64,000 nt of DNA. Source: Botryotinia globosa. Taxonomy: Eukaryota; Ascomycota; Leotiomycetes; Helotiales; Sclerotiniaceae. Location of the stretch: contig RCSZ01000002.1 in the NCBI GenBank assembly GCA_014898425.1, forward strand, positions 2,914,001 to 2,978,000, in the 5' to 3' direction. Positions 42,783 to 64,000 of the stretch are shown here, in pieces. The position numbers and the translations under genes are program-made. The stretch's first letter is position 1; every line of letters begins with the position of its first letter. The notes beneath the pieces were generated by a model. The model saw nothing but the letters and a program-made list of their open reading frames with translations, searched no databases and was not told the DNA's origin.

Positions 42783-43260
42783 TCAATAATCTCCTTCCCG
42801 GTCATCCTCGTCGGTGTCTAAGGAGACTTTTGCTATTACTGTTTCTGTTCTTCGTCAGCCAAGTTCTTATCCTTTGATCTCCTTTCCTCATACCAGTAGC
42901 TTCTTTCTTTCCTGCAACTTTTTTGTTCAACATGAGCACATTGCCTTCCGCCTTGATCGCGTTCTTCAATGAATGTTTCACGCCCCTCTTCCGTCCCCTT
43001 GCGGGCTGTTCATCGTTGTTCGCAGCTTCCCCCATATTCTCATTATCCGGGCTCAACTGGCCGCTTTGCTCAGCCATCGAGGATATCCATCTCCTGAATC
43101 TATGGTGGGCTGCATTCTTGTTGGCAACACCCATATCTGCAATCAAGCGATCAAGGTCAAGCTTATTCCAGATTCCCTTGAACTCATCTGCGATATCAAA
43201 TTGCTTGGATATAGCATTCCAAACAAGAGTGTTATTGTCAATTCTCGGGTTGGGAGGCAT
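42783..43260 (-). CDS. Array member 1: small Myb/HTH-like domain protein
   Basis: First gene of a twelve-gene paralogous array and the only one on the minus strand, head to head with member 2. Exons 43260-42894 and 42838-42783 (55 bp intron, GTATGA donor, CTGAC branch, CAG acceptor; 140 aa). The domain (about residues 9-60) has NTLVWNAISKQF as helix 1, LDLDRLIADMGV as helix 2 and KNAAHHRFRRW as the recognition-type helix, closest to the domains of member 3. The tail is Lys/Arg-rich and, after splicing, ends in the acidic TDEDDREGDY. Without splicing the frame ends in a basic sequence unlike other members, which supports the intron. DNA binding is inferred from the domain only. Confidence 0.75.
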
Positions 43261-43998
43261 GTTTGCGTTTGAAGTCAGGATGTCGAATACGAGCTTGATG
43301 TTTCTTGTCGATATGGAATTGCCTTGCGGATAGTTCTCCAGATGCTTGACAAGTGGCGATTGGGAGAGTAGTCGTTTGATGGCAAATTGTCTCTATTTGT
43401 AGTGAGCATTATAATTACCCACAAACAGAAACATCTCTTACCAGAGAAAGCTTCTTAAGCTTTCTATGATCATTCGGGTAAACACCATGAAGATTCGCGC
43501 CTCAAAAGACTTTTGCCTTGTTGAGAAGGAGATGTTGCCTAAATAGTGAAACGCAACATCCGCCCATGAACCAGCGCTCTAGATAAAAGTATCTACCACC
43601 AGCTGTAAGCTTCGGTGGTTCAGAACTATACCGGATAAACTTCCCATCAGACATGCGTGGAATCAATTCTCTTAATATTCCTTGAACCTAAAGTATTCAG
43701 GGCTTCAATTCTCAACGAGAAGGCTGATATCTAGTATTATCTCAACTCCCAGTGCTGTTGTAATCTCAAGAAGGCCTGTGCGCTAGTTCACCACTGATAA
43801 AATAGCCGAAGTTCTAATACATGCCCAGGTGCACAAGCACCAAAAAACCTCCAAAGAAAAACAAATATCGAAATATCTTCCGGCTCTTCGAATCATCGAG
43901 AATCTCATATTGTCATCAATTGCAGTCTACCAGTTCGTCACCTCCCCCTTCAAATCAATCGAACACGCACACCCTCCAAAAATCCGCCGTCAACAATC

Positions 43999-44514
43999 AT
44001 GCCGGAAAAACCTCACCCACCCAAGTTCACTCAAGCTGAGCTGGACTTGTTATGGGCCATTATCGAACACGTTCCAAAAGAGCAAATCAACGCTTGTGTT
44101 GCTGGTAGTGTAGATGCGGTGGCTGCAGCTTTGGGAATCAGAAAGACAGCTACTGAAAAGCGCTGGTCCCGTCTTGGAATCAGAGTGCGCAAGGGAAAAA
44201 AGGCCGCGGATGAGGGAGTCGTTGTCGCAGGCATTGCAGAGGAGACCGAAGCAGAAGCCAGTGGTGAGGATCAGGAGATTATCACAACAGATGACGGTGG
44301 AAAGCGTGTTGGTGGCAAGGATGTGGTTGGAAAGGGTGTTAAGGCGCTTCGTGTTACACCCAAGCGTAATCACAAGACTCCTGTCAAGAACAAGGTCTCT
44401 CAAGATAAGGTTATCAAGAAGAAGGCTACTATCACAAAGGACAAGCGTGGCAAGAAGGTTATCAAGGATGAGGTCACTGCCAAATCCAATATCAAGGTAG
44501 AAGAATCCGAGTAG
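43999..44514 (+). CDS. Array member 2: Myb/HTH-like protein, acidic tail cut by a stop
   Basis: 171 aa, single exon. The domain (about residues 10-65) contains LDLLWAIIEHV, VDAVAAALGIRKTATEKRW and SRLGIRVRKG. The remainder is an extremely basic, Lys-rich low-complexity region (KKKATITKDKRGKKVIKDE). Directly after the TAG at 44512 the same frame continues for nine codons (DFDDDEAAF) to a TGA at 44542. This resembles the acidic endings of the other members, so the TAG is probably a recent nonsense change (or a read-through site). Start ATG 43999 has context ATCATGCC, like several paralogs. Probably nuclear because of its basic composition; function unknown. Confidence 0.75.
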   Translation: MPEKPHPPKFTQAELDLLWAIIEHVPKEQINACVAGSVDAVAAALGIRKTATEKRWSRLGIRVRKGKKAADEGVVVAGIAEETEAEASGEDQEIITTDDGGKRVGGKDVVGKGVKALRVTPKRNHKTPVKNKVSQDKVIKKKATITKDKRGKKVIKDEVTAKSNIKVEESE

Positions 44515-45093
44515 GATTTTGACGATGATGAGGCAGCCTTCTGACTAGAACTGGAAAATTCATACAGGCTGGGGCGTTTGGATTGAAGGACGAAGCTAGG
44601 ATGCCAGCGATAGCGATATTGGGGAAAAGTTCTAGATAGGCATCACCTCCAATCTCCCAATTTTCTCTCATAATCAATACAAACAGTGGCATTTGGCACA
44701 AAGAGAACGCCTCCGTAATTCATTATTCCGAATGTGATATAATTCTGTCACCATCCATGCACGTATCCTTGTATGCGGGGACCATTTAACCTACATCCGT
44801 TATCAATATTCCTTTTGTCTCATTGATTAAACAATCTTGCGAGAACAATCGAGAAAAAAGTAAAAGTTTGCATCAGTGCATTCAGACAAATGATCAGGTA
44901 AATCTAAAGAAAGTTCAAGTTGAACTCGAGCTGGTTCTAGCTGCAGGCAACCATAATGTATCAACTCGCACCTGCCGTTCGTAAATTACTTACATCCTCG
45001 TCTACATCCAAACTTCAACAGTATCATCTCTCCGCCAAAGTGACACCCTTAACCTTGACATCTGCATTCAACCAACTCGAACCTGCAGTAATC

Positions 45094-45987
45094 ATGTCGA
45101 CCGACGCAGAGACCCAAAACAACAACCTCGTTCTTACAGCCCTCTTTAAACAGATCGATATTGGTGCACATGGGGCCATCAATTTCAAACGTCTAGCAGA
45201 AGATATGGGTGTTAATGGTCAAAATGCTGCTCGGCATCGCTTCCACCGATTCAAAAGATGTTTTACTAGAACTGATGGGGTACGTCCCACTCTTGCCGAT
45301 GTCAACAACAATAATCTAGTTATGAGCGCCCTCTTCAAGCAACTCGAAATTGGCAGGATCGACTTCACACGCTTGGCGGTGGACATGGGCGTTAATGGTC
45401 CAAATGCTGCCAGACATAGGTGGATTCGTCTTTTGAACAGTTTTGGGGTTAGCAGGCCAAACAGAGCGGCTGGGGATCAGCGTCCAGGTGATGGCGGAGA
45501 TAACGAGAAGAATCACAGAAGAAACTCTGGGAATGAAGGAGAGAAAGGGGACAGAAAGGAGAGCGATGAAGCAACAAATGGCCCTGTAAAGGTCGAAGCG
45601 AACACCAAAGCTACTCGAACCAATCTTCCCGGCTCGCCCCTGAAGTTTGAGATTAAAAGGGATGGAACTGGTCTGGAGTCACCTAAGAAACCTGGCAAGA
45701 GAAAGATGGAGGACACGGATGGAGATTTGAATGAAGAGAAAGAGGGGGCTAGATTGATGCAGATGCCGGCGAGAAAATTTCTGAAGAGTGCGACAAAGAG
45801 TATCAAAAGTAGACAGAGGAGTAAGCGGGGCAATAATGATATCGGGGAAGGTTATGATGGATATGGTCAAGATGAGGGGTTCGAGTCTGGCTTTGAGGAC
45901 ATCGACTACACAAGAGTTCCTGACAAGAAGAAGAAGAGGGGCAGAACAGTAGACGAATACAGTGGCGAGGAAGATTGGGAAGCTTAA
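45094..45987 (+). CDS. Array member 3: tandem double Myb/HTH-like domain protein
   Basis: Longest member, 297 aa from ATG 45094; an in-frame ATG at 44956 would add 46 residues that do not match the paralogs. It carries two copies of the domain: NNNLVLTALFKQIDIG...NAARHRFHRF (about residues 9-60) and NNNLVMSALFKQLEIG...NAARHRWIRL (about residues 71-122). The copies are clearly more alike to each other than to other members, so the duplication is internal and fairly recent. The tail is long, disordered and charged, with KKKKRGR near the end as a possible nuclear localisation signal. The C-terminus is SGEEDWEA, matching the Glu-Ala ending seen across the array. Single exon. Confidence 0.8.
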   Translation: MSTDAETQNNNLVLTALFKQIDIGAHGAINFKRLAEDMGVNGQNAARHRFHRFKRCFTRTDGVRPTLADVNNNNLVMSALFKQLEIGRIDFTRLAVDMGVNGPNAARHRWIRLLNSFGVSRPNRAAGDQRPGDGGDNEKNHRRNSGNEGEKGDRKESDEATNGPVKVEANTKATRTNLPGSPLKFEIKRDGTGLESPKKPGKRKMEDTDGDLNEEKEGARLMQMPARKFLKSATKSIKSRQRSKRGNNDIGEGYDGYGQDEGFESGFEDIDYTRVPDKKKKRGRTVDEYSGEEDWEA

Positions 45988-46520
45988 ATACACATTGAAT
46001 TTCCATCACACCGACTTTGCTGCGATACTATTCCAGGTTTTGCGTTGTAGGTATCTTGCATTATTTGAGACACGGATATGTGGTTTGGCACCGGGGTGAA
46101 TTTTGTTTTGGAGGATTCGATTAGAGCTTGTCTATTTGCTGTGGATTTTGAAGCTTGGTCTTAGAATACAGATATAATTCATACCAGAAGGTGATTTCAT
46201 GAACTTTTAGTGCATAACTGTGAGGTCGAGTAGGACGCCTAATTCCCCGGAATATTCCTACCTCGTCTATTGAATTAGAAAAAGAAACTCTTCGATTTAG
46301 TCTAGCTTCATTCACGAAATAGCAAAATACCACTATAAAGATCTCGATGCCCACCAGATATTTTTTTCATTTTCTCAGGTCAAGAGTTTCGGTAGCTTAG
46401 CCCATCTTGATTCTCGTCTTTCAAAAGCATTATCAATCTACTTAGCCCTTTCTTGAACGAATTGAGCCTCTTACATCTCAAAAAGGAATTTCAATACACA
46501 ATCGAATTTTTTTTCTCAAG

Positions 46521-47187
46521 ATGGCTTCCATGGAAGAGAAGCTCCTCATGGGAGTGTTGACTCAAATCGAAGTTGGTCGCATTGATTACGATGGTATACA
46601 GTCTTCCCCTGAACCATTCCCAAACGATCATTCATTGCAAATTAATACCATCAAACGCTAACCTCACGCTTTCTTCAGAACTTGCAAAATACATCGGCGT
46701 CGCTACATCCAAAGCTGCTCGCTGCAGATGGGATCGCTACAAACACAAACTTACAAAGGGGGCACCGCCAATCACTCCGAGAAAGGCAGCTGGAGTCGGC
46801 AAGAAAATCGGATTAGTCTCACCGAAGAAGGCAGGAGGTAGTCCAAAAAAGAACAACCGGGGAAGCCCCAAGAAGTCACGCGGTCGAATCAAGGAAGAGA
46901 GTGACGAAGAGGGAGAGGAATTAGACATAGACGAGGACGAGGAAATGGATTACGACAAAAACGCTCCGGATCTCCATGTCAAAATGGAGGAACCAATCAC
47001 ACCATCACGTAGGTTGCCGTCCCGACGAGCAAGGGTTACGAAGTTTGTGGAAGAGACTAGTGATGCGGAGGATGAGCAGGAAGAGGAAGATGGAGAGATG
47101 CAGGTTGGCGCGGAAGTTGAGGGAATGAAAGATTTGGCTGTCAAGGATGAAGATGATGGAGGATATCAGAACGAGGTTGAGGCGTAG
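46521..47187 (+). CDS. Array member 4: Myb/HTH-like protein with intron inside the domain
   Basis: Exons 46521-46593 and 46679-47187 (193 aa). The 85 bp intron (GTATAC donor, GCTAAC branch, TTCAG acceptor) interrupts the domain between helix 1 and helix 2 and restores RIDYDELAKYIGVATSKAAR, followed by CRWDRYKHKL. Without the first exon the domain would lack helix 1 (EEKLLMGVLTQIEVG). The tail has three SPKK-type basic repeats (residues about 70-100), which resemble minor-groove-binding SPKK/AT-hook-like motifs, then a Glu/Asp-rich end finishing NEVEA. Start context AAGATGGCT is good. Function unknown. Confidence 0.8.
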
Positions 47188-47460
47188 GCTATGTGAGAAT
47201 GTGATAGATTTTCTCAGGTCAACTAGGTAACAGCCGGGAACGCGGGAAACGAGTGGAATACATGCAGGCTTCGAAAAGCAACCCTTTACACTTCTTCTAA
47301 TGTCCAACCTTTCATATTTAGTCCGTTTCTAGAATTCACAATACATCCCAATCAGTATATTAATATCTGTTCCTCTGTGCAACAAGTGTCAAACCTCAAT
47401 TAAACCAATTCTTTTCCACGGAACACAAAATCACTTCAATACTTCCCAATACCACCCACG

Positions 47461-47892
47461 ATGAACGACAACGACAAGCAAATTATGATTGGAGTCCTCC
47501 AACAGATCGATAGAGTCGATTTCAAAGTCCTCGCTCAATCTCTCCATCCCGAGCTAGAGCCTGCAGAAATCACCAGAGCCATGGCTGAGAGTCTTCGAAT
47601 ACGCTGGAAGGGTCTGAAGCAACGACATGGAATCGAACCTCCTCCTATCACTCCTAACGTTTCGCCCAAGAAAGACGCAAACAAAGCTGTTAGTAGAGCT
47701 GGCAATGGAAGTGGAAGAGGGAGAAAGCGAAAGGTCACCATCGAAGACAACGACGAGTCCGAACCCCCGAGCCCGATGAAAAAGAAAGACAAAGGACAAG
47801 GAAAGGCAGTTGTGAAGTTGGAGATCAGCGATAAAGGGGACAAAGCGTTTGAGGATGCTATCTTTGCTTATGGTCCCGACGATGAGGCTTGA
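47461..47892 (+). CDS. Array member 5: small Myb/HTH-like domain protein
   Basis: 143 aa, single exon. Helix 1 is KQIMIGVLQQIDRVDFKVLA. The loop before the third helix is longer than in the paralogs (about ten extra residues, SLHPELEPAEITRAM), followed by ESLRIRWKGLKQRHG. The tail contains PPPITPNVSPKK, a GRGRKRK basic cluster (possible nuclear signal) and MKKKDKGQGK, and ends YGPDDEA. The spacing and the PPITP segment resemble member 4 (APPITPRK), so 4 and 5 may be sister copies. Confidence 0.78.
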   Translation: MNDNDKQIMIGVLQQIDRVDFKVLAQSLHPELEPAEITRAMAESLRIRWKGLKQRHGIEPPPITPNVSPKKDANKAVSRAGNGSGRGRKRKVTIEDNDESEPPSPMKKKDKGQGKAVVKLEISDKGDKAFEDAIFAYGPDDEA

Positions 47893-48217
47893 GATAATGG
47901 CTTGCTGGGATTGAGATTGTGCAGGGCTGAAGCCTAAGCTGGAAGGAGACGTGCATATATTAGTGGTTGGTGGCTGACAGGGAATTGTCTGTGCTCTGCA
48001 TAAGGGGCGGATATGCGAGGCAAAAGAAATCATATTGCTAGATTGTTCTGGGGTATGGAATTAATGATTCTTTTTTTACAACTTCTTGGAGAATATGACA
48101 GAAAGTATTTAATCGTGTGAAATGCCTTTGCAAGAGTATAATTCCCAAGTAATTTCATCCCAATCTCGAGAACCACAAACCAACCATACAAATTCCACCC
48201 CGCGAAGTACCATCATC

Positions 48218-48697
48218 ATGCCACCCCAACCAATAGAACACAAATTCAAAATTCTTATGGCTGCAATGTCACAGTTCTCAAGTAACGAGAAAGAACTTTT
48301 CCCAGTTCCCAACTACACCATTCTCGCAGAACAACTCGGATTGCCTAGTTATGCTTCTGCACAAGGAGTATGGAAACGACTCACTGACGAATTGAAGGAG
48401 GGGGCGAAGGGAGATCTAAAGATTCGGGATCCGGAAGCAGACAAAAAGAAGAAGAAGAAGAGTGCTGTCCAGCAATGCGAAGAAGATTCTCCGGTTAAGA
48501 AACGAGCAGCTGAGGAATCAGACACGATCGCGAACGATTCTGAGTCCTCCCCTACCAAACGATCGAAAGTTAGTGCCGGCAAGCGCGCCATCATAAAGTA
48601 AACCACCAATGCAGGAAGCGAATCGAAGGGAAGATTTTTCAGGTCGGAGTGCGGTTGGATGAAAGATCAAGGCTGGTACCCGGACAACGAGGCTTGA
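48218..48697 (+). CDS. Array member 6: small Myb/HTH-like domain protein, two exons
   Basis: Exons 48218-48597 and 48643-48697 (144 aa). The 45 bp intron (GTAAAC...TTTCAG) removes an in-frame TAA just after IIK. Splicing gives SECGWMKDQGWYPDNEA as the C-terminus, very like the end of member 9 (GWPYNEKGWPDEA), which is strong support for the splice. Domain: FKILMAAMSQFSSNEKELF, YTILAEQLGLPSYASAQGVW, KRLTDEL; the helix-3 Trp is shifted by one relative to the RW of others. Start 48218 (ATCATGCCA) is chosen over an in-frame ATG at 48122 because the paralogs begin near the domain. Confidence 0.78.
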
Positions 48698-49050
48698 GTC
48701 TGCGCATGGTAATAAGCAATGGAAGGCTACAGAAAACAAGGGTGTCGGAGAATTGTATCGATTGTCGGACTTTCTTGGAAAAGTAAGTGCATGACTAGGC
48801 GAGTCTAGTCAGTATCAAATGCAAACATCTAGACCCACAGGGATCTACACGGTCAACTGAAGAACTATTTGTGAAACTTTCTGATATGTGGGATGCAGTA
48901 TATTAATTGTGTAGCATCTAAGATGTTAATTTATTATTCTCAACCTCATTTCCAACTCCACGTCCGTCAATACCATACTTCTCTTTCGATCCCACAAGAA
49001 TAACATCCGACAACAAACCTTCAAATCAAATTAGAACAAATCAACTCAAC

Positions 49051-49507
49051 ATGTCTGCAAGTCCAAGTGTCGAAGACCTCAAAATGCTCATCGCAGTACT
49101 AGTACAATGCGCCCCTGACAACAAACCCCTTCCAAGACCAGATCATTTGAGATTGGCAGAAGCCGTCGGCCTTCGCGATCGAATAGCCTCCAAAAAGAGA
49201 TGGTCTAATCTGATGAAGAAGTTCAGAGATGGGGATTTTGGAGATATGGAGGGTCTAATCGCTTCGAGGGAGCCTAATGAAGCGGCAGCAAAGAAACGAC
49301 CAGTAGTCGAGGTACCAGTTGGGGGGTATATAGACGAGTCCGCACCTTCTCCTACCAAGAAAGTCAAGTAGGTTCTTAACATCCGTTCTAATCTTTCAAG
49401 TGAAGCACGCTAATCTCGTCGTACACAGAGGTGCCCAAAAAGTAGGAAAAGGAAAGGGCAAGCAAAAGAAAGCTGTCAAAGAGGAGACCGGTGAGGATAA
49501 GGTCTGA
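49051..49507 (+). CDS. Array member 7: small Myb/HTH-like domain protein, two exons
   Basis: Exons 49051-49367 and 49429-49507 (131 aa), with a 61 bp intron (GTAGGT donor, GCTAAT branch, ACACAG acceptor) that replaces an early TAG by a Lys-rich tail (GKGKGKQKKAVKEE). Domain: VEDLKMLIAVLVQC, HLRLAEAVGLRDRIASKKRW, SNLMKKFRDGDFGDM. The FRDGDFGD segment after helix 3 matches KDGTFGDLK in member 8 and KGDLKIRD in member 6, marking 6, 7 and 8 as a subgroup. The ending is TGEDKV rather than Glu-Ala. Confidence 0.76.
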
Positions 49508-50047
49508 GATCATGCGGAAAGGGAGGCAGGCGGGGCTCTTACGGGACGATGGAGATACAGTCAATTGGTAGGCTGCGAAGAATTCCTTGATGTATTGATG
49601 CGCTTCGGGTATTAAGCATGGAGTTAGTCAATGAATCATGCTTGAACAGCCATTGAAGATGGTTAGATGGTGTCTTGCTTGAGTGAGGAGTTCTGTATTA
49701 GTGACAATCATGAGAAACTAAAGACAACCAGAGTCACCCATCAATAGTGAACATCCGAGCACGCACAGATGCGGAAAGTCATTGGATAGTATCTATATGG
49801 TACTAGCTCCTAATAGTCTAGTGCTATCCCAACGGATCGCTTCGCAAGTTTCTTACCCTGTAGATTTCCTGTCACCTTTCGGTTCGATATTTCCGCACAA
49901 TCCCACAAAAATCCATCCACATTTGTAGAATTGCCATCAAGGATCTCCTTCAAGGAACAATTTTGCACATCCACACAACCTTCTTTCGAACCCAAGAAAA
50001 TTTAACGATACACAACCGCTCCCTGATAACCGATCAAATCTACAAGG

Positions 50048-50576
50048 ATGCCACCAAAGCCCGACAACTCGTTGACTGACCGAGAAAAATGCTTTGCAGC
50101 CGTGTTTAGCCAGATTCTCTCGGGTGCTACATATCCCAAGTTGGACTATGAAAAGCTCGCTGAAGACCTCGGTCTTCCCAGCGCAGCGGCGGCACGCACT
50201 CGTGTAAGTTTACTCTACCATTCAATTTTACACTTTTACTATGGTCAATCACTGATGTCTTCTTTACTAGTGGGCTCGTATGATTGCGATGATGAAAGAT
50301 GGTACATTTGGAGACTTGAAGATCTCTAGTTCTGGTAGAAGAAGTAACAAGCGCAACATGGAAGAGGCTGGTATCGAAAATGGAGATGAGGGATCTGATG
50401 ACGTAGCTGCTCCTGCTCCTGCTCCTGCTCCTACTAAGAAACACAAGCCCCTTGTTCCTCGCAAGAAGGCTGGTGGCGCTGGTGTAAAGCCGGAGAAGAA
50501 GATCAAAGAGGAGAAGTTCATGAACGGAGGAGGAGGTTCTGGATTTGATGGCCCTGAGGACTCTCGTTTGGTTTAA
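50048..50576 (+). CDS. Array member 8: small Myb/HTH-like domain protein, two exons
   Basis: Exons 50048-50203 and 50271-50576 (153 aa). The 67 bp intron (GTAAGT, TTACTAG) cuts the domain just before the helix-3 tryptophan, giving SAAAARTR then WARMIAMMKDG. This intron position is unlike that of member 4. Helix 1-2: REKCFAAVFSQILSG and LDYEKLAEDLGLP. The tail has an Ala-Pro dipeptide run (about residues 98-105) encoded by a GCTCCT repeat, basic clusters (KKHKPLVPRKKAGG) and a Gly-rich end finishing DSRLV, one of the members without Glu-Ala. Confidence 0.78.
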
Positions 50577-50869
50577 ACATAATGCAGGGTCTCAAAGAAT
50601 GAAGTCTACTTGAGTTTCAGAGTTATCGTTGAGACAGTTGGGAACTGCCTAGATTCTTCGGGAAGTCAACATAATCAGCCGATGAATTGATCAATGAAAC
50701 ACCTGAAATTGACTATCTAATGACTCTTGCTTTAATATTTGAATGACTGTGAAAATGAATCCATGCAAGATAATCCTAAGCCGCTATCAACCCACACCAT
50801 ACGAAAATCTATCAAATCGATCCATTTAACGTACATTCCCGCATCCGCAGCACAGCAACAAGTAGCGCT

Positions 50870-51340
50870 ATGGCACGCAGTGACGATACTAAGCTTCGTA
50901 TCGCAGTCTTCAAACAATGGCGATCCGCTCGTATAGATACAAGTAAACTAGGGGAAGATCTCGGTATTAATTGCGGAGCTGCAGGTATGCGTCTGTTTCG
51001 ACTCAAAGTGAGGCTCCGGACTGGAGAAGGGACAACAGACGCTGATGATGCACTTCTTACTGCGATCATCAATCAGGAAAAACGTTTACCTAGACTCGAC
51101 TACAAACTACTTGGTGGAGATCTCGAAATCAACCCCGGAGCTGCAGCCATGCGTTGGTGGAGGTACAAGTTGCGCCTGGAGGCGGATGCTAAAATAGTGG
51201 AACAGCAAGAGGGAGAGAGAAATAATCCAAGAAGCGACCCAGCCGAAAGCCCAATTGCTTCGGAGACAGGAACTAATAGCACACAGTCAGGGGTTTTCGG
51301 ATGGCCATACAATGAAAAGGGCTGGCCGGACGAGGCTTAG
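50870..51340 (+). CDS. Array member 9: compact double-domain Myb/HTH-like protein
   Basis: 156 aa, single exon, two domain copies. Copy 1: TKLRIAVFKQWRSARIDTSK with LGEDLGINCGAAGMRLFRLK. Copy 2: ALLTAIINQEKRLPRLDYKL with LGGDLEINPGAAAMRWWRYK. Copy 1 has LF in place of the conserved RW, so it may have lost the usual recognition residue. The tail is short and ends GWPDEA. Directly after the TAG stop the nucleotides GAGGCTT are repeated (GAGGCTTAGGAGGCTTGAG), so the conserved Glu-Ala-stop codons are themselves duplicated. The strongest relative by domain is member 10 (GIKPGTAAVRW). Confidence 0.8.
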   Translation: MARSDDTKLRIAVFKQWRSARIDTSKLGEDLGINCGAAGMRLFRLKVRLRTGEGTTDADDALLTAIINQEKRLPRLDYKLLGGDLEINPGAAAMRWWRYKLRLEADAKIVEQQEGERNNPRSDPAESPIASETGTNSTQSGVFGWPYNEKGWPDEA

Positions 51341-51629
51341 GAGGCTTGAGATCTTTGCAGGGGTTCAGAGCCACATGAAACTAGGTCTCGGAATGCGGGA
51401 GTAGGGTTCTATCACATAGGCAGTCGCATGTATGCATAAAGAATCAACTGGAGGTCAGATTTACAATCGACGATTATTTATTGACTGTGAAATCGCTTGC
51501 ACTCTTTTGATACAAATTTATCAACTTTACACATATTTACATCTCCAAACAAACTTCACCATTATCACAACACAAGGCCGACAAATAATCACCATCATCA
51601 CTTCAAAAATCTACGAAAGCTGCACAAAA

Positions 51630-52226
51630 ATGCCTCCAAAAGCCAACACCTCTGCAAAGAGTGACGACGAAAAACTTCTGATTGCCGTTCTCAGCCTTTG
51701 GGATCCTCTCCCGCCTGTCGACAATAACAGACTTGGTGCGCTTCTGGGAATCAAGCCCGGAACTGCTGCTGTGCGTTGGCATCGATTCAAAGCAAAACTG
51801 CTCAAGGGAACCGAGAAAAAAGCCGGAGATGATGTGAAAGTTGAACAGAAAACGGCGGCACTTGGCGATTCAGCTGGAGACAAAACATCTGCCGATGATA
51901 CGGATATTAGACAGGCAGCTGCGGTATTAGATGACAAAAAGAGGGGCAAAAATGGAGGACGGAAGCGTGCAGCGGCGGCGGAGGGACCAAAAGAGCCACC
52001 TACTCAACGCAAGAAAATCGATAAGTCGATCGGTATCTCTTTGAATGCGTCTTCTTCTAAACCGGGATCTAGCAAAGGCAGGAAGACAAACAAAGACAAG
52101 AAGCCATTGGAAGAGCTGGGCGCGGTTAAGCAGGAAAATGGCCAGTTCGAGTTTGGTATGCGCTGGCTGGAGACTGGGGATGATGGGAACATGCTGGGTG
52201 AGTTGTTGTCAGGAGAAGAGGCTTGA
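51630..52226 (+). CDS. Array member 10: Myb/HTH-like domain protein
   Basis: 198 aa from ATG 51630 (AAAATGCCTCC, like members 2, 6 and 8); the open frame extends upstream to 51432 but that part is unlike any paralog. Domain (about residues 10-60): DDEKLLIAVLSLWDPLPPVD, NRLGALLGIKPGTAAVRWHR, FKAKLL. The tail is long and charged with possible nuclear signals (GKNGGRKRA, KGRKTNKDKK), an Ala-rich stretch, and ends LGELLSGEEA. Single exon. Confidence 0.8.
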   Translation: MPPKANTSAKSDDEKLLIAVLSLWDPLPPVDNNRLGALLGIKPGTAAVRWHRFKAKLLKGTEKKAGDDVKVEQKTAALGDSAGDKTSADDTDIRQAAAVLDDKKRGKNGGRKRAAAAEGPKEPPTQRKKIDKSIGISLNASSSKPGSSKGRKTNKDKKPLEELGAVKQENGQFEFGMRWLETGDDGNMLGELLSGEEA

Positions 52227-52534
52227 GATTCTGCAGCCACGCGTATTTCTTTGGTTTCGGATGCAAATGCACAGGGAGAAACATAATAAGCAATGAAACG
52301 ATTCCCTTATCTCAGCACCCTTGTAACAAAATCTAGTCATTGCCTTGTATATCTATATAAATGCATGTCTACCTTTACATGATATCTCCCAAGCAACCAC
52401 CGCAGTTGCGAAAATCCAGCGCAAAGTCACATTCAGTCAGTAACGCTTTATTGGTAACTTTCTCTTTTCATTACAAGACTAATTTGTTTGATCAGCAGTC
52501 CCGTATCCAAAAAAAGAATTCAAGACCCATCACA

Positions 52535-52936
52535 ATGTCCACCGAATCCGCCGAAGACCAACGACTTATCGCAGCCGTATTCAAACAAATCAAGCTTGCC
52601 GAGATAATTTTGGATTACGAGCAACTAGCAAAGGACCTTGAAATCAAAGCTATGCATCCAGGAAAAGCTGCAGGCAAGCGTTGGACACGATACAAGCAGA
52701 AGCATGGTCTTTTTGCGGAAAAATCGGCCAAGAACGAGGTCAGTGATGAAATGGAGAACTGCATGAATGTTACACCGAAGGCGGGAAACGGCAAAAAGAC
52801 AGGGAATGCGGCAGAAAGTACAAACGGAGGGAAGAAGGCTGCATCAAAGAAAAGAAAGATCGTCAAGGATGAGGATGAGGATGATGATGAGGAGGAGGAG
52901 GAGGAGGAGGAGGAGAAGGAGGATAACTACTACTAG
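52535..52936 (+). CDS. Array member 11: Myb/HTH-like protein with polyglutamate tail
   Basis: 133 aa from ATG 52535 (ACAATGTCC). Domain: DQRLIAAVFKQIKLAEIILD, YEQLAKDLEIKAMHPGKAAG, KRWTRYKQKHG. The last 22 residues are Asp/Glu only apart from one Lys (encoded by GAT/GAG trinucleotide repeats), then DNYY. The pure acidic run probably varies in length between isolates. Basic KKAASKKRKIVKD just before it could be a nuclear signal. A TATATAA sequence lies about 180 bp upstream of the start. Confidence 0.8.
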   Translation: MSTESAEDQRLIAAVFKQIKLAEIILDYEQLAKDLEIKAMHPGKAAGKRWTRYKQKHGLFAEKSAKNEVSDEMENCMNVTPKAGNGKKTGNAAESTNGGKKAASKKRKIVKDEDEDDDEEEEEEEEEKEDNYY

Positions 52937-53238
52937 GACTTTCCGTGCTGAGAAAAATGATAGCTCAGATTGTTAAGCAATATTGAGAAGGTTGATGGGG
53001 AGACCAGTGTCCAAGCGGGTGTTTATTGTTTCCAACTGATGACGATATCTACCTTGAGAATTTGAAGTAGGAGAATGATTCAGCCCAAGAATTTACTTCT
53101 TTGAGACTCTATGAATTTTGCGGGTTGATAAATACTTAATTACCAGTGATCCTTTCTCATTTGTTGTCCCTCAGTCCCTTCACACCATACATACATTGAT
53201 ACAGATTTTCACAACACCATTGTACCTTCAAATCAGTC

Positions 53239-53858
53239 ATGTCTAGCGACGCGGAAAAGAAGTTATTAGTTTCCATTCTTAGGCAGGCCAATATTGGCCA
53301 CATCGATTGGGACAGAGTTGCAAAGGATCTCAGCGTTCCCACCAAGTCAGCTGCACAAATGCGATGGCAGCGATTCAAAAAGACGTTGCCTGACTTCAAT
53401 CAAGGACAAAACGGCAATGCGAACTCTTCGCCACCAACAACACCGAGAAAAAGACAATCTCCGACGAAAAGCAAAGCTCTCAAAGGCAGCCCCTTGAAGA
53501 AGCAAAAGCGTTTAAAACTTGACAGTGATGATGACGACGAAGAACTAGAACTCGATAATTACGATGAGAAAGAGAACAAGATTGCCCCCGAGACACCAGC
53601 ACGAAGTCTCCCAGGTAGAAAAGCAAAAGCCAAGTCTCCGATCAAGGATGTGAGTACACTTCCTCTGGCTATTTCTCACTATATCTACTGACATCTCTCT
53701 TTTAGGCAGGTACGAGTGATGAGGAAGATGACATCAAGAATGAGGAATCAGGTGAAAATGGGGAAACTCAAGAAACCGAGTTGACTCGGGAAACTGTTGC
53801 GAGTGGGGGAACTGCTGTTGATTCGGGATCGGATTTCGATGGAGATGTGGAAGCATGA
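53239..53858 (+). CDS. Array member 12: Myb/HTH-like protein, two exons
   Basis: Exons 53239-53649 and 53706-53858 (187 aa). The 56 bp intron (GTGAGT, TACTGAC branch, TTTTAG) joins SPIKD to AGTSDEEDDIKNEESGENG and gives a C-terminus ending DGDVEA, which fits the array's Glu-Ala rule. Domain: AEKKLLVSILRQANIGHIDW, DRVAKDLSVPTKSAAQMRW, QRFKKTL. The tail has TPRKRQSPTKSK and SPLKKQKRLK (SPxK-type motifs, as in member 4) followed by an acidic segment. Last gene of the array; the next gene is unrelated. Confidence 0.8.
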
Positions 53859-54403: not shown

Positions 54404-55408
54404 ATGAGAGTACAGATAATGTGGGCTTATCACCCCATGATGTGCCTGTGAGAGTCAACACTCTTGGTTGGCTGACGGATCCTGAAACAAAAACAACTGT
54501 TGGACATTCAATGAAGCCAATTTCCCATTCTTCCCAAAGAAATCCGTCTACGTATTTGGCTACTGGCACTTCAACCACGACCCCGCTTCATCTCAATTCA
54601 TATCCATCTCACGACTCTTGATCAGACTGAAATTCAGCACATTCAGTCTCAAATGTACACTACTCGCACTTCTATGGGCAATATCATAATTAGTTGCCCC
54701 TGTGAACTTGCAATCAATGAGTCTGCCGCGAATCAGATGATCAGCACAATCTTCTCGACCTCCAAAGAATCAAGATGGGTGGCGCTAGACTACTTCTATC
54801 TTCGTCTACCACTCGCAAACAACCGTCACATTCGAGTTAACCCTGACCACGATGTTCTCTTTTTCCACCCTGGTCATGATATCCGCGATATCAACATGCT
54901 TGCTGCTATCCTCCATGATATCAAAGCATATGATCCAAGAGACCTAGGCCTCAAGCACTTAGCTATCCTTAGAGATACTTTTTTTCCAGACAAACAGCCC
55001 TTTACGAGAGGGGTTGGAAACTGTGGGTCGAGTAGGCCTATAGACATTTCGAGCGCTGGAGGTGCAGGAAAGATTGCCTTAAGCCATCCCATAGCCCAAG
55101 CATCTCTCACCGACATCCTCAGCACAAAACTTCGGACGTTGTGGTGTGGTCAAAAAATGTACACTCGAACGCGGGTCTACGGTCCAGGAATACTCGATCG
55201 GCCAGTCGGAATGCCCCAGTGGATGGAGACTTTACCGATACTGCCTCTCTTGGATAGGTTGGGCATATCATATCTCAACTTCGTGTGGATCGAGAATGAC
55301 CCCAGACCTATAGAGCAGGATATTAGTAACATGCCATTTTTTAAAGATCCGCGCCGATACCACCACAGTTGGAAGTTTGTTGGGTTACATTTGCTTAGCC
55401 ACCGATAG
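54404..55408 (+). CDS. 2EXR-domain-containing protein
   Basis: The frame 54517-55408 carries QFPILPKEIRLRIWLLALQP, the canonical 2EXR signature, then a SRWVALDYFYLRLP segment and VNPDHDVLFFHPG, both typical of this family. No ATG precedes the motif in that frame. The best solution is a short first exon 54404-54447 joined through a 69 bp intron (GTGAGA donor, GCTGAC branch, AAG acceptor) with phase kept, giving 311 aa; this exon is tentative. The family is of unknown function and expanded in Leotiomycetes. It flanks the paralogous array on its right side. Confidence 0.65.
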
Positions 55409-60199: not shown

Positions 60200-60764
60200 T
60201 TAACCGTTTCTGCAACAAATACTCGTGTAAGAGATGTTTATCCACCAGTATCCCTTGTACTAACGTCAGAACAGGAGGGGTTGAGGAAATAATAAAGGTG
60301 GTGTGAACTTACAATAGTGCCAATTCAAGATCACCGTGGATCTTCGCTTTCAGCGTAATCTCCACCTCGAGATTCAAATCCAACCGTAATCTAAGTGTAT
60401 CTTCTTTGTCGTCTCCCTTCTTTTCACCACCACCACCCAAAACACCGCCAGCAGCGTTACCAAGTGTGTTTCCAACTTGGCCGGCAGCCCCTCCGACGGT
60501 GTCACCAACTTGATTCAAAGGAACCATGTCACCGACACCACCGAGTGGTCCACCACCGCCTCCACCACCTTGCTGCTTTTGCTTTTGCTTTGCCGGTCGA
60601 CGTGGGGGTGGTGCTTCTTCTTCTGATTCTTCGTCGGACGTATAATCATCGGAATCGGTTTCCGATTCGGATTCAGGCTCTGGTTGTCTCTTTTTGGGGG
60701 GAGCCTTCTTTCCTTTTGTGGCAGTCTTGGTGGCAGCAGCCTTTGGCTTGGCTTGACTAGCCAT
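60200..60764 (-). CDS. Disordered charged protein with conserved LRLDLNLEVEI C-terminus (paralog A)
   Basis: Exons 60764-60313 and 60209-60200 (153 aa). The long exon ends two bases into a codon before GTAAGT; a TTTGTTGCAG acceptor 103 bp on leads to a tiny exon (Asn-Gly-stop). Retaining the intron gives an immediate stop. Seen: Lys/Ala/Pro-rich basic start, acidic ESESETDSDDYTSDEESEEE, a Gln/Lys linker, a Gly-rich region (about residues 70-115), then TLRLRLDLNLEVEITLKAKI and HGDLELALL. The last segment is almost identical in the gene at 63161. I recognise it as a pattern found in hypothetical proteins of filamentous fungi, with no known function. Its alternating hydrophobic residues suggest amphipathic beta strands. 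Confidence 0.7.
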
Positions 60765-61440
60765 TGTCGAAGTAGAGCTCTGCGAGAGAGACCTCCGTAT
60801 GAAAGGGTGTTGGGAAAAAAACGGAGGTTGGATTATCCTAAAAGGATATGAAGAAAATGGAAAGATGTTTGTTTGAATAAGGAGAAAGAGGATAGATATG
60901 ATTGACTCGAACCTGTGTTCTTTAAAAGAAAGACTGAGTGGATTTCTCGAGAATCGAACCTGCTTCCGCTGATTCCACGTCATCATCCCACTTGATGCAG
61001 ACCCCCTTGCCGGCCAAAGCCGTTTTCTTGTTTTTCGAGGTAATAGCTTGTAGCTAATTTCTCCAGGTCCTTCTTTGGCAAGTTTTCACCAACCATGCAG
61101 TGTCAAAGTTGGCAAATTGCGAAACATTTGTTCCGTGGCTGGGAAGGATATATTGTTCCTAGTGGGTCAGATACAAGCATTTACAGGCATTACCTCGCGC
61201 GATTTTTCCCCATGTTCGATTGAAAAAGGCAGGATTTCGTCATATTGCATGTAAATTGATTATTTTTGAATTGTTGGTACAGGATTAATATTTCAAGAGT
61301 TCGAATTTGTCGAGTCTCGTGCGTGTTTGTAACATGAGTATCTTGGTCTAGGCTGGACAGTGCAGTGTAAATGGGAAGACTTCGGATGGGTATCATGAGA
61401 TTTTCATATTGTGTTATGTTATTTTCCAATGGTGAAATTG

Positions 61441-62141: not shown

Positions 62142-63160
62142 CTCGTGATTCTCATCTGACTTGTTGTCCTCAAGGTTGAACGTTATCGTAAAATTGTATT
62201 ATCGTAGTATTGTATGTATGGTATGTCTTGTGGAAGTGGAAGTGGATACTGGAACAGTGTATAATTAATTGAATTCGGTGTTAGAAAGGTGCTGTGGGGA
62301 CGGAAGATGTCGATTTAGTTGTTCACCAGCCACAACTTATCTCTTCAAATCCCATGTCTAATGCTGAATTAGCCCCCCACCGTTTCAGTTGAAAATGATA
62401 TCATGCGGATGAAGTCATGAAACCCGAAAGTATTACTTGTGCTAGCCTCGTAGAGGTAGCTTTTTTGACATTTTGAAGAACAAGGTATTAGTGGCTAGTG
62501 GCTTACTTCTTGTATGGATAGGCTGTACAGGTACTGGTAATGTATAAGTTTTCATACCCAAAAGGCCCTGAAAACTTTAGGAGACAACAGGAAACATTGT
62601 ATTATTTACCATGGTTCTTGTTCGAGTACCATTTAGCCTTGATTTATGAGAAATGTGCGCCTCTAGACTCGGAGGTTCGAATTGGTGGACGGATGGACTC
62701 GACCTTTTTGGTAGAAGTAGCAGCCCTGTAGCTTTCCATGACCCACATGCACACGTTGGTTTGTCAAAGCCCACATTTATCACCAAAATCCTTGCCATAA
62801 ATCATCTAATCCAGGATTCTTGGCCTCCATTATGTCCAAAAACATAATAACCCGCTGTAGCTTACACCTCCTACAAGGATAAAAATGAAGGCAGCGGTTA
62901 TGTCATAGTTGAGTTGTTTGAAAGCTTGCTCCATAGAATTGGCATGAATTTCCAAGTTTACATTTTTTGGCTTTCATATAAGACAAATCTACAACGGTGC
63001 TAAGTGAGATTCCTCCCCATATCTGATTTTGAAAGAATTTCTTGAGTTTGTATTTTTGACTCTTAGCTATATACCCTTCTCCTCGCGTACACGGGGTTTC
63101 CTCATCTTCTAAATCCTTCATTACATCACCTAAATACATCCCATAAATCCACAAGCCAAT
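62142..63160. other. Divergent promoter region, nothing recognised
   Basis: One kilobase between the minus-strand unknown gene and paralog B. Only short frames without motifs are present. Confidence 0.4.
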
Positions 63161-63861
63161 ATGCCGCCAAAGGAGAGTACACCCATTGGTGGTAAAAAGG
63201 GAGCGCCAACTCCTGATGCCACCCCTGACAGAGACAACGAAGAAAACGAGCAAGTAGAGCAAGAAGAGGAGGCTCAAGATGAGGAACAAAATGAGGATGG
63301 AGAAGAGGAACAGGATGAGGAAGAACAAGAAGGCACGGAGCAGAAGGCACAGGCATCAGTAGAAGACGACAATGAAGGAGCAGAAACTGGTGCCGAGGCC
63401 ACTGCTGACGAGAATGAAGGCGGCGAAGAAGCTCAAGACGAAGAGCCTGAAAAGGAAGTAGAAGAGAGCGAGGATACTGCCGTTCACAACGAACCTGAAC
63501 CTGAACCTGAGCCAGAAAAGAAGAAGAAGAAGCATCGCCGTCGTAAGGTCAAGGAGCCTGAACCAGAAGAAGAGGAGGAGGAGGAGGAAGCTCCTGCACG
63601 CAAACCCCGTCGTAAGAGGAGAGATCGTCCTCAATTCCTTGAACAAGATGGTGGAAACGATTATAAGCAACAAATGCAAATGATGCAACAACAACACGAA
63701 CAGCAAATGCAAATGATGCAAATGCAACAGCAACAGCAACAAGGTGGTGGCGCAGCGAAAGATCAAGGGAAGCAACCTTTGAAGTTGAGATTAGACGTCA
63801 ATCTCGAAATTGAGATTGAGTTGAAAGCCAAGATTCATGGTGATTTGACATTGGCATTGTT
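63161..63861 (+). CDS. Disordered acidic protein with conserved LRLDVNLEIEI C-terminus (paralog B, runs off window)
   Basis: The first exon encodes 233 residues plus two bases. Seen: a Glu/Asp-rich acidic half (about residues 20-115), an EPEPEPEPEKKKKKHRRRK transition, a basic KPRRKRRDRPQF cluster, a Gln/Met-rich stretch (KQQMQMMQQQHEQQMQMM), and the shared terminal segment PLKLRLDVNLEIEIELKAKI with HGDLTLALL. The exon ends in the same phase and at the same codon as in paralog A, before a GTACGT donor. A strong acceptor (polyT then CAACAG) ends exactly at base 64000, so the last coding exon probably lies just outside the window. Function unknown. Confidence 0.72.
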
Positions 63862-64000
63862 GTACGTTCTATCACATTCCCACTTGCCCTTTTCCATACA
63901 CATTTCATATGTAGTCTTCAAACCTCTTCAGTGTAAATGTCGAGAACAAGTACCTCTCAATACAATTTACGAGCTCGGTCGAGCTGATTATTTTCAACAG

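Follow-up and report, generated by a model that had tools for sequence, protein, structure and literature searches.

A stretch of 64,000 nucleotides of the Botryotinia globosa genome (contig RCSZ01000002.1, positions 2,914,001 to 2,978,000 of the forward strand; the window) carries an array of 12 adjacent genes whose products share a Myb-like three-helix domain, and we conclude, with somewhat more confidence than doubt, that this array encodes DNA-binding nuclear factors regulated by SUMO and cyclin-dependent kinase (CDK), that is, predicted chromatin or gene regulators. A three-helix domain of DNA-binding type joined to a tail of SUMO/CDK type is the layout of regulated chromatin and transcription factors, and for this reason we favour this reading over the alternatives considered below.

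The array proteins share a homologous three-helix domain

The 12 neighbouring genes, defined by open frames together with predicted introns, span window positions 42802-53858, with g01 on the minus strand and g02-g12 on the plus strand. By eye, no intervening frame within the array looked gene-like, in keeping with the uninterrupted block described in a first-pass annotation of this DNA. In our gene models, all 12 reading frames are open and the proteins are 131-297 residues long, while the domain occurs in 14 copies, with g03 and g09 carrying two each. One intron is predicted in each of g04, g06, g07, g08 and g12; the g06 intron is uncertain, and P0049, this gene's database form, terminates without it.

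We searched the proteins against Pfam-A, with g04 and g08 as spliced models and g07 and g12 as first exon only, and found that ten of the 12 matched PF22980 (Myb_DNA-bind_8; curated cut-off 27 bits), six of them reaching the cut-off (g02, g03, g04, g08, g09 and g12) and four falling below it (g01, g07, g10 and g11); g05 and g06 had no PF22980 match in this search. In profile-profile comparison, where the g08 group consisted of a single sequence and the g11 group of two, all 14 domain groups linked to the pooled domains of the other genes with 79-99% probability, the weakest being g05 (79.4%), and the best column-shuffled control (ten per group) reached 30.6% in one group and less than 7% in the other 13. 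Moreover, BLASTP at E<1e-3 joined all 12 proteins into one connected set through 23 of the 66 possible pairs. Taken together, the profile links, the shuffled controls and the BLASTP connections indicate that the shared domain is a case of real homology. The earlier proposal of one Myb_DNA-bind_8-like family, whose domains should align in a profile search, thus holds, and the helix patterns given for it fit the domains.

Structure models predicted a helix-turn-helix-like fold. The AlphaFold2 model of g12 has three helices at residues 4-15, 24-31 and 36-49 and no strand, with a block predicted local distance difference test score of 82-93 over residues 1-50, and its tail is predicted at low confidence, as expected for disorder. 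The model of the two-domain g09 protein (predicted template modelling score 0.62) has helices at 2-17, 24-31, 35-51, 57-67, 78-85 and 89-117; a fold search with this model gave no useful match. Helix 3 carries a net charge of +1 to +7 in all 14 domains, and tryptophan is the group consensus at its position 43 in 11 of 14 groups and occurs elsewhere in at most two of 14. The exposed helix-3 positions 36, 37, 40, 41, 44 and 48, picked by eye, vary between paralogues and are conserved among orthologues, where we looked by eye for hypervariability and saw none. A specificity signal in helix 3 was rejected, since these positions, again judged by eye, are no more conserved than other surface positions.

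The individual genes are listed here with the SUMO-type motif [VI]KxE and the CDK-type motif S/TPx[KR] in their tails; bits refer to PF22980.

g01, 42802..43260, minus strand: one Myb-like domain, helix 3 KNAAHHRFRRW, basic tail, one IKAE; 16.7 bits, below cut-off; profile link 95.4%; 7 database relatives, [VI]KxE in 3 of 7.
g02, 43999..44514, plus strand: one domain, two [VI]KxE in the tail; 27.3 bits; 9 relatives, all 9 with [VI]KxE, 8 of 9 finishing in a longer acidic E[AE]AF.
g03, 45094..45987, plus strand: two domains in tandem, long charged tail, VKVE, C-terminal DWEA; 60 bits over two stretches; 21 relatives.
g04, 46521..47187, plus strand: one domain, predicted intron 46594-46678, SPKK/TPRK motifs and three [VI]KxE in the tail; 37.6 bits (spliced model); 100% identity to EAF00_002001 (P0024).
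g05, 47461..47892, plus strand: the most diverged domain, with an insert between helix 2 and helix 3, VKLE, C-terminal DDEA; no Pfam match; profile link 79.4%, E 1.5e-5; 3 relatives.
g06, 48218..48697, plus strand: one domain; the database version stops at 48601, and the alternative model has an intron at 48598-48642 and C-terminal DNEA; no PF22980 match; profile link 97.3%; 15 relatives including the window's own entry, [VI]KxE in 2 of 15.
g07, 49051..49507, plus strand: one domain, predicted intron 49368-49428, VKEE in the tail; 16.2 bits (first exon), below cut-off; profile link 97.6%.
g08, 50048..50576, plus strand: one domain, predicted intron 50204-50270, two [VI]KxE; 33.5 bits (spliced model); a relative occurs only within P0023, a fused protein of B. 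fragariae.
g09, 50870..51340, plus strand: two domains separated by a few residues, short and acidic tail with C-terminal GWPDEA, [VI]KxE absent; 49.4 bits over two stretches.
g10, 51630..52226, plus strand: one domain, long tail, two [VI]KxE, C-terminal GEEA; 18.9 bits, below cut-off; profile link 98.9%; 21 relatives.
g11, 52535..52936, plus strand: one domain, tail Lys-rich then Glu/Asp-rich, VKDE; 24.6 bits, below cut-off; profile link 97.2%.
g12, 53239..53858, plus strand: canonical domain, predicted intron 53650-53705, five S/TPx[KR] and IKNE in the tail, C-terminal DVEA; 62.1 bits (first exon only); 22 relatives in one database search.

The tails carry SUMO- and CDK-type motifs

The Lys/Glu-rich tails reported in the first pass are indeed charged in 11 of the 12 proteins, the exception being g09 with its short tail of 7% Lys+Arg, and those of g04, g09, g11 and g12 are net acidic. 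We scanned them for the consensus motifs of SUMO attachment, CDK phosphorylation and SUMO interaction. The tails are strongly enriched in the first two of these and in a C-terminal Glu-Ala. Taking g06 in its database form, the strict SUMO-acceptor consensus [VI]KxE occurs 15 times in ten of the 12 tails, being absent from g09 and from that form of g06, compared with three occurrences of the reversed motif, and V or I precedes 15 of the 19 KxE. In aligned relatives outside g06, the motif is retained in 136 of 169 cells (gaps excluded), a count that is not a probability because the relatives share descent, as holds for all such counts here. It is near-constant in the relatives of g02, g03, g04, g05, g07 and g10 and patchy in those of g12 (17/26), g01 (3/7), g06 (2/15) and g09 (1/10), and the g06 site that depends on the predicted intron is retained in none of 11 relatives. 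Conservation of the lysines in these sites exceeds that of the remaining tail lysines only marginally (p 0.057). CDK-type S/TPx[KR] motifs number 19, in seven of the 12 proteins, against 1.4 in shuffled sequences, and their sites are conserved above other serines and threonines. SUMO-interaction motifs in the array tails show no excess (2 against 2.1 shuffled). An open frame that reads as SUMO is present in the same B. globosa genome.

Seven of the 12 proteins, or six without the g06 intron model, end in Glu-Ala. Among relatives this end is found in g05 (3/3), g09 (9/10), g04 (13/21), g03 (11/21), g10 (11/21), g12 (11/26) and g06 (1/15), and it is absent from the relatives of g01 (0/7), g02 (0/9), g07 (0/5) and g11 (0/1). 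Two B. globosa genes have lost part of their acidic C terminus, g02 (44491-44550) stopping about 10 residues short of eight of its nine relatives and g09 (51311-51352) about three residues short of six of ten.

The array is probably old and stable

From database searches, one of which listed 120 of 695 matches, we collected 194 proteins and assigned each to its best array gene by BLASTP. Among the matches listed, the named close relatives belong to Botrytis/Botryotinia, Sclerotinia, Stromatinia, Ciborinia and Monilinia, of which we take Sclerotinia to be a member of the Sclerotiniaceae, the other genera having been placed by taxonomy lookup; these matches suggest that the array is likely restricted to this family. 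Each of the 12 genes is represented in at least one Botrytis species, g08 and g11 mostly as parts of fused annotations. Again among the matches listed, Sclerotinia, Stromatinia and Ciborinia have named relatives of g03, g04, g10 and g12, and Monilinia of g03, g04, g12 and probably g11, other members outside Botrytis being deduced from locus-tag spacing only.

Gene order elsewhere was read from the locus-tag numbers of annotation sets, B. porri and B. cinerea each being counted twice. All 23 sets with at least two located members are collinear with the window, including six that hold only two and cannot fail, and the order follows the array in all 17 sets with at least three. Of 74 steps between located members, 65 equal the gene count exactly and 72 come within one. 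Exact agreement at all three of the steps g12-g10, g10-g04 and g04-g03 in Stromatinia, Sclerotinia nivalis and Ciborinia leaves room for precisely the missing members; departures were found in Sclerotinia borealis (a step of 5 for 8 genes) and in both Monilinia sets. Some annotations fuse neighbours (g10+g11, g08+g09, g06+g07 and probably g11+g12), and some relatives are annotated as shortened genes. In the seven groups measured, several of which contain the window's own database entry (P0024, P0028, P0049, P0115), mean orthologue identity was 0.82-0.90 in the domain and 0.58-0.79 in the tail, the domain being higher in all seven.

Synteny between Botrytis and Sclerotinia is high overall, with 7,752 paired genes in 571 regions for strain T4 given in PMC3158057, so the collinearity speaks for an old and stable array but not for selection on gene order in particular. 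The array is thus probably an old, stable gene set, in line with the first-pass view that it is old and maintained. We also considered recent stepwise tandem duplication and rejected it: members lying near each other are no more alike than distant ones (Spearman -0.09, permutation p 0.22), and the closest pair is g04 and g12, though they lie eight genes apart. We favour an old tandem expansion as the way in which the family diversified. No shared promoter motif emerged from the 12 upstream regions, where k-mers of 6-8 were no more frequent than in shuffles.

One dispersed relative of the array is widespread in Pezizomycotina

With an E limit of 10, PF22980 yielded 17 pieces genome-wide. Eleven lie in the array, and the rest come from one gene at C15, two genes on C4 and a doubtful one at C9. 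A search for further copies with g06 and g03, the only two of the 12 genes used as queries, returned array members only. One of the two C4 genes, C4b (EAF00_003533, P0137), is found in one place in the B. globosa genome and is the best match for 55 of the 194 collected proteins, itself included, whose names presumably point to Leotiomycetes, lichen fungi and other Pezizomycotina. This family shows the SUMO-acceptor motif even more strongly than the array, with 110 [VI]KxE in 52 of its 55 proteins, or 72 in 38 of 41 when the 14 proteins listed under Sclerotiniaceae are left out. None of the 55 ends in Glu-Ala, and 40 end in [VIL][VIL][VIL][DE], a hydrophobic-acidic peptide resembling a SUMO-interaction motif (for example P0137 and P0147-P0151). 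Next to C4b on contig 4, a frame at 4201-5398 of L020 (minus strand) encodes an N-terminal helix that has diverged (KETEMLVAVMSEMG), together with a TPSPTKKTSPKKK tail, and may be another, very diverged family member.

Proposed function and alternative explanations

Membership of a Myb_DNA-bind_8-like family and a basic helix 3 make DNA-binding regulators the natural reading of these predicted proteins, for which we infer binding to DNA, a nuclear location, modification by SUMO and by phosphorylation, and a role that is mainly repressive or architectural. In the mechanism that we propose, the Myb-like domain would contact DNA through helix 3, and SUMO attachment at [VI]KxE together with CDK-type phosphorylation at S/TPx[KR] would likely switch the disordered charged tail. 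The common acidic Glu-Ala end may serve as a docking peptide. Different target sites or different stages of action are probable for the paralogues, because their exposed helix positions and tails differ and each paralogue is conserved across its orthologues. Attachment of SUMO to DNA-bound regulators usually brings in repressors, and the array factors are likely to be repressors or architectural proteins. More speculatively, an ancient Pezizomycotina Myb-like regulator that both bound and accepted SUMO might have been amplified into twelve fixed, non-redundant DNA-reading modules unique to Sclerotiniaceae, each marking different sites and all jointly switched by SUMO and a cell-cycle kinase, for instance in sclerotium or fruiting-body development; we hold this fuller scenario only tentatively.

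The same tails could belong to linker-histone-like architectural proteins, which would bind DNA or nucleosomes largely irrespective of sequence and compact chromatin through S/TPKK-rich tails, the paralogues then being chromatin proteins specific to an abundance or a stage instead of regulators with sequence specificity. The strong S/TPx[KR] enrichment and the charged, apparently disordered tail agree with this; however, S/TPx[KR] is present in only seven proteins, four tails are net acidic, the Pfam linker histone family is unmatched and the g12 model has no strand, and we consider this reading rather unlikely. If the domain instead read proteins or histone tails, the array products would be SANT-like adaptors whose tails scaffold SUMO-bound complexes. 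Weak likeness to SAGA and BAF/PBAF chains among the Foldseek rows and the suitability of SUMO-type tails for scaffolds speak for such adaptors, but SANT domains that bind histone tails have an acidic face whereas helix 3 is basic in every array domain, making this distinctly less likely. Both are possible readings.

We see very little chance that the array is a conflict locus of allorecognition or genome-defence proteins shaped by birth-and-death evolution and diversifying recognition, as the first-pass annotation had suggested. Tandem arrangement, strong divergence of paralogues and, among the matches listed, close relatives named in one fungal family only would suit such a locus, but the near-constant copy number and order across annotation sets, the orthologue domains conserved in the seven groups measured and helix-3 positions that by eye are not hypervariable speak against it; the age and stability of the array argue against conflict. 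A decaying relic with mostly unexpressed copies is just as improbable: B. globosa g02 and g09 end before most relatives and certain relatives appear in annotations as fused or shortened genes, yet every frame is open, all 12 genes have relatives in other species and domains are conserved more than tails in each group measured. Of the readings weighed, SUMO/CDK-regulated DNA-binding factors remain the one that we prefer.

Neighbouring frames

Directly after the array, a plus-strand frame at 54653-55408 has a weak match to the 2EXR family, below the cut-off. Further downstream, frames at 60309-61085 (minus strand) and 63134-63868 (plus strand) are Lys/Glu-rich and have in common a C-terminal stretch like LRLDxNLExEIxLKAKIHGDLxLALL. 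Neither has a Pfam match, and their arrangement suggests an inverted duplication within an unnamed fungal family.

Significance and comparison with known systems

The suggestion that this might be an undescribed system was overstated, the domain being a named Pfam family; the array and its tail signature, however, were absent from the literature searched. The terms 'Myb_DNA-bind_8' and 'PF22980' were found nowhere in that literature, looser searches gave nothing on the array in titles or abstract openings among the matches listed, and 'Myb' is absent from the main text of PMC3158057. Our analysis provides a widespread fungal domain family with a testable hypothesis, that its members are SUMO-regulated DNA binders. 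A knock-out of C4b, wide in Pezizomycotina and in one place in this genome, would be informative for many fungi, and the array offers twelve stable paralogues for the study of division of work in a regulator family. To our knowledge, tandem arrays of transcription-factor-like genes that keep their order across genera are unusual in fungi.

By profile, the array domain is the same as PF22980, with six of the 12 proteins over the cut-off; elsewhere in the B. globosa genome this family is represented by dispersed genes, in contrast to the 12 genes and 14 domains here, and the SUMO/CDK tail signature is a feature of the array of which we met no description for PF22980. The adjacent three-helix domains of g03 and g09 recall R2R3 Myb proteins such as c-Myb and plant WER, WER giving a weak profile match (E 0.37) and c-Myb repeat 2 a Foldseek match (E 1.6). 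Each R2R3 repeat, however, has three regularly spaced core tryptophans, a spacing that the array repeats do not show, and ten of the 12 array proteins have a single domain. Fungal Reb1 is larger and has several Myb domains, unlike the array proteins, which span 131-297 residues and contain one domain or two. Linker histone H1 combines a small globular winged-helix domain with a charged tail bearing S/TPKK motifs, and the array proteins likewise have a small globular domain and a charged tail with such motifs; they differ from H1 in that none of the 12 matches the Pfam linker histone family, the g12 model is strandless, and the tails are partly acidic and carry SUMO motifs.

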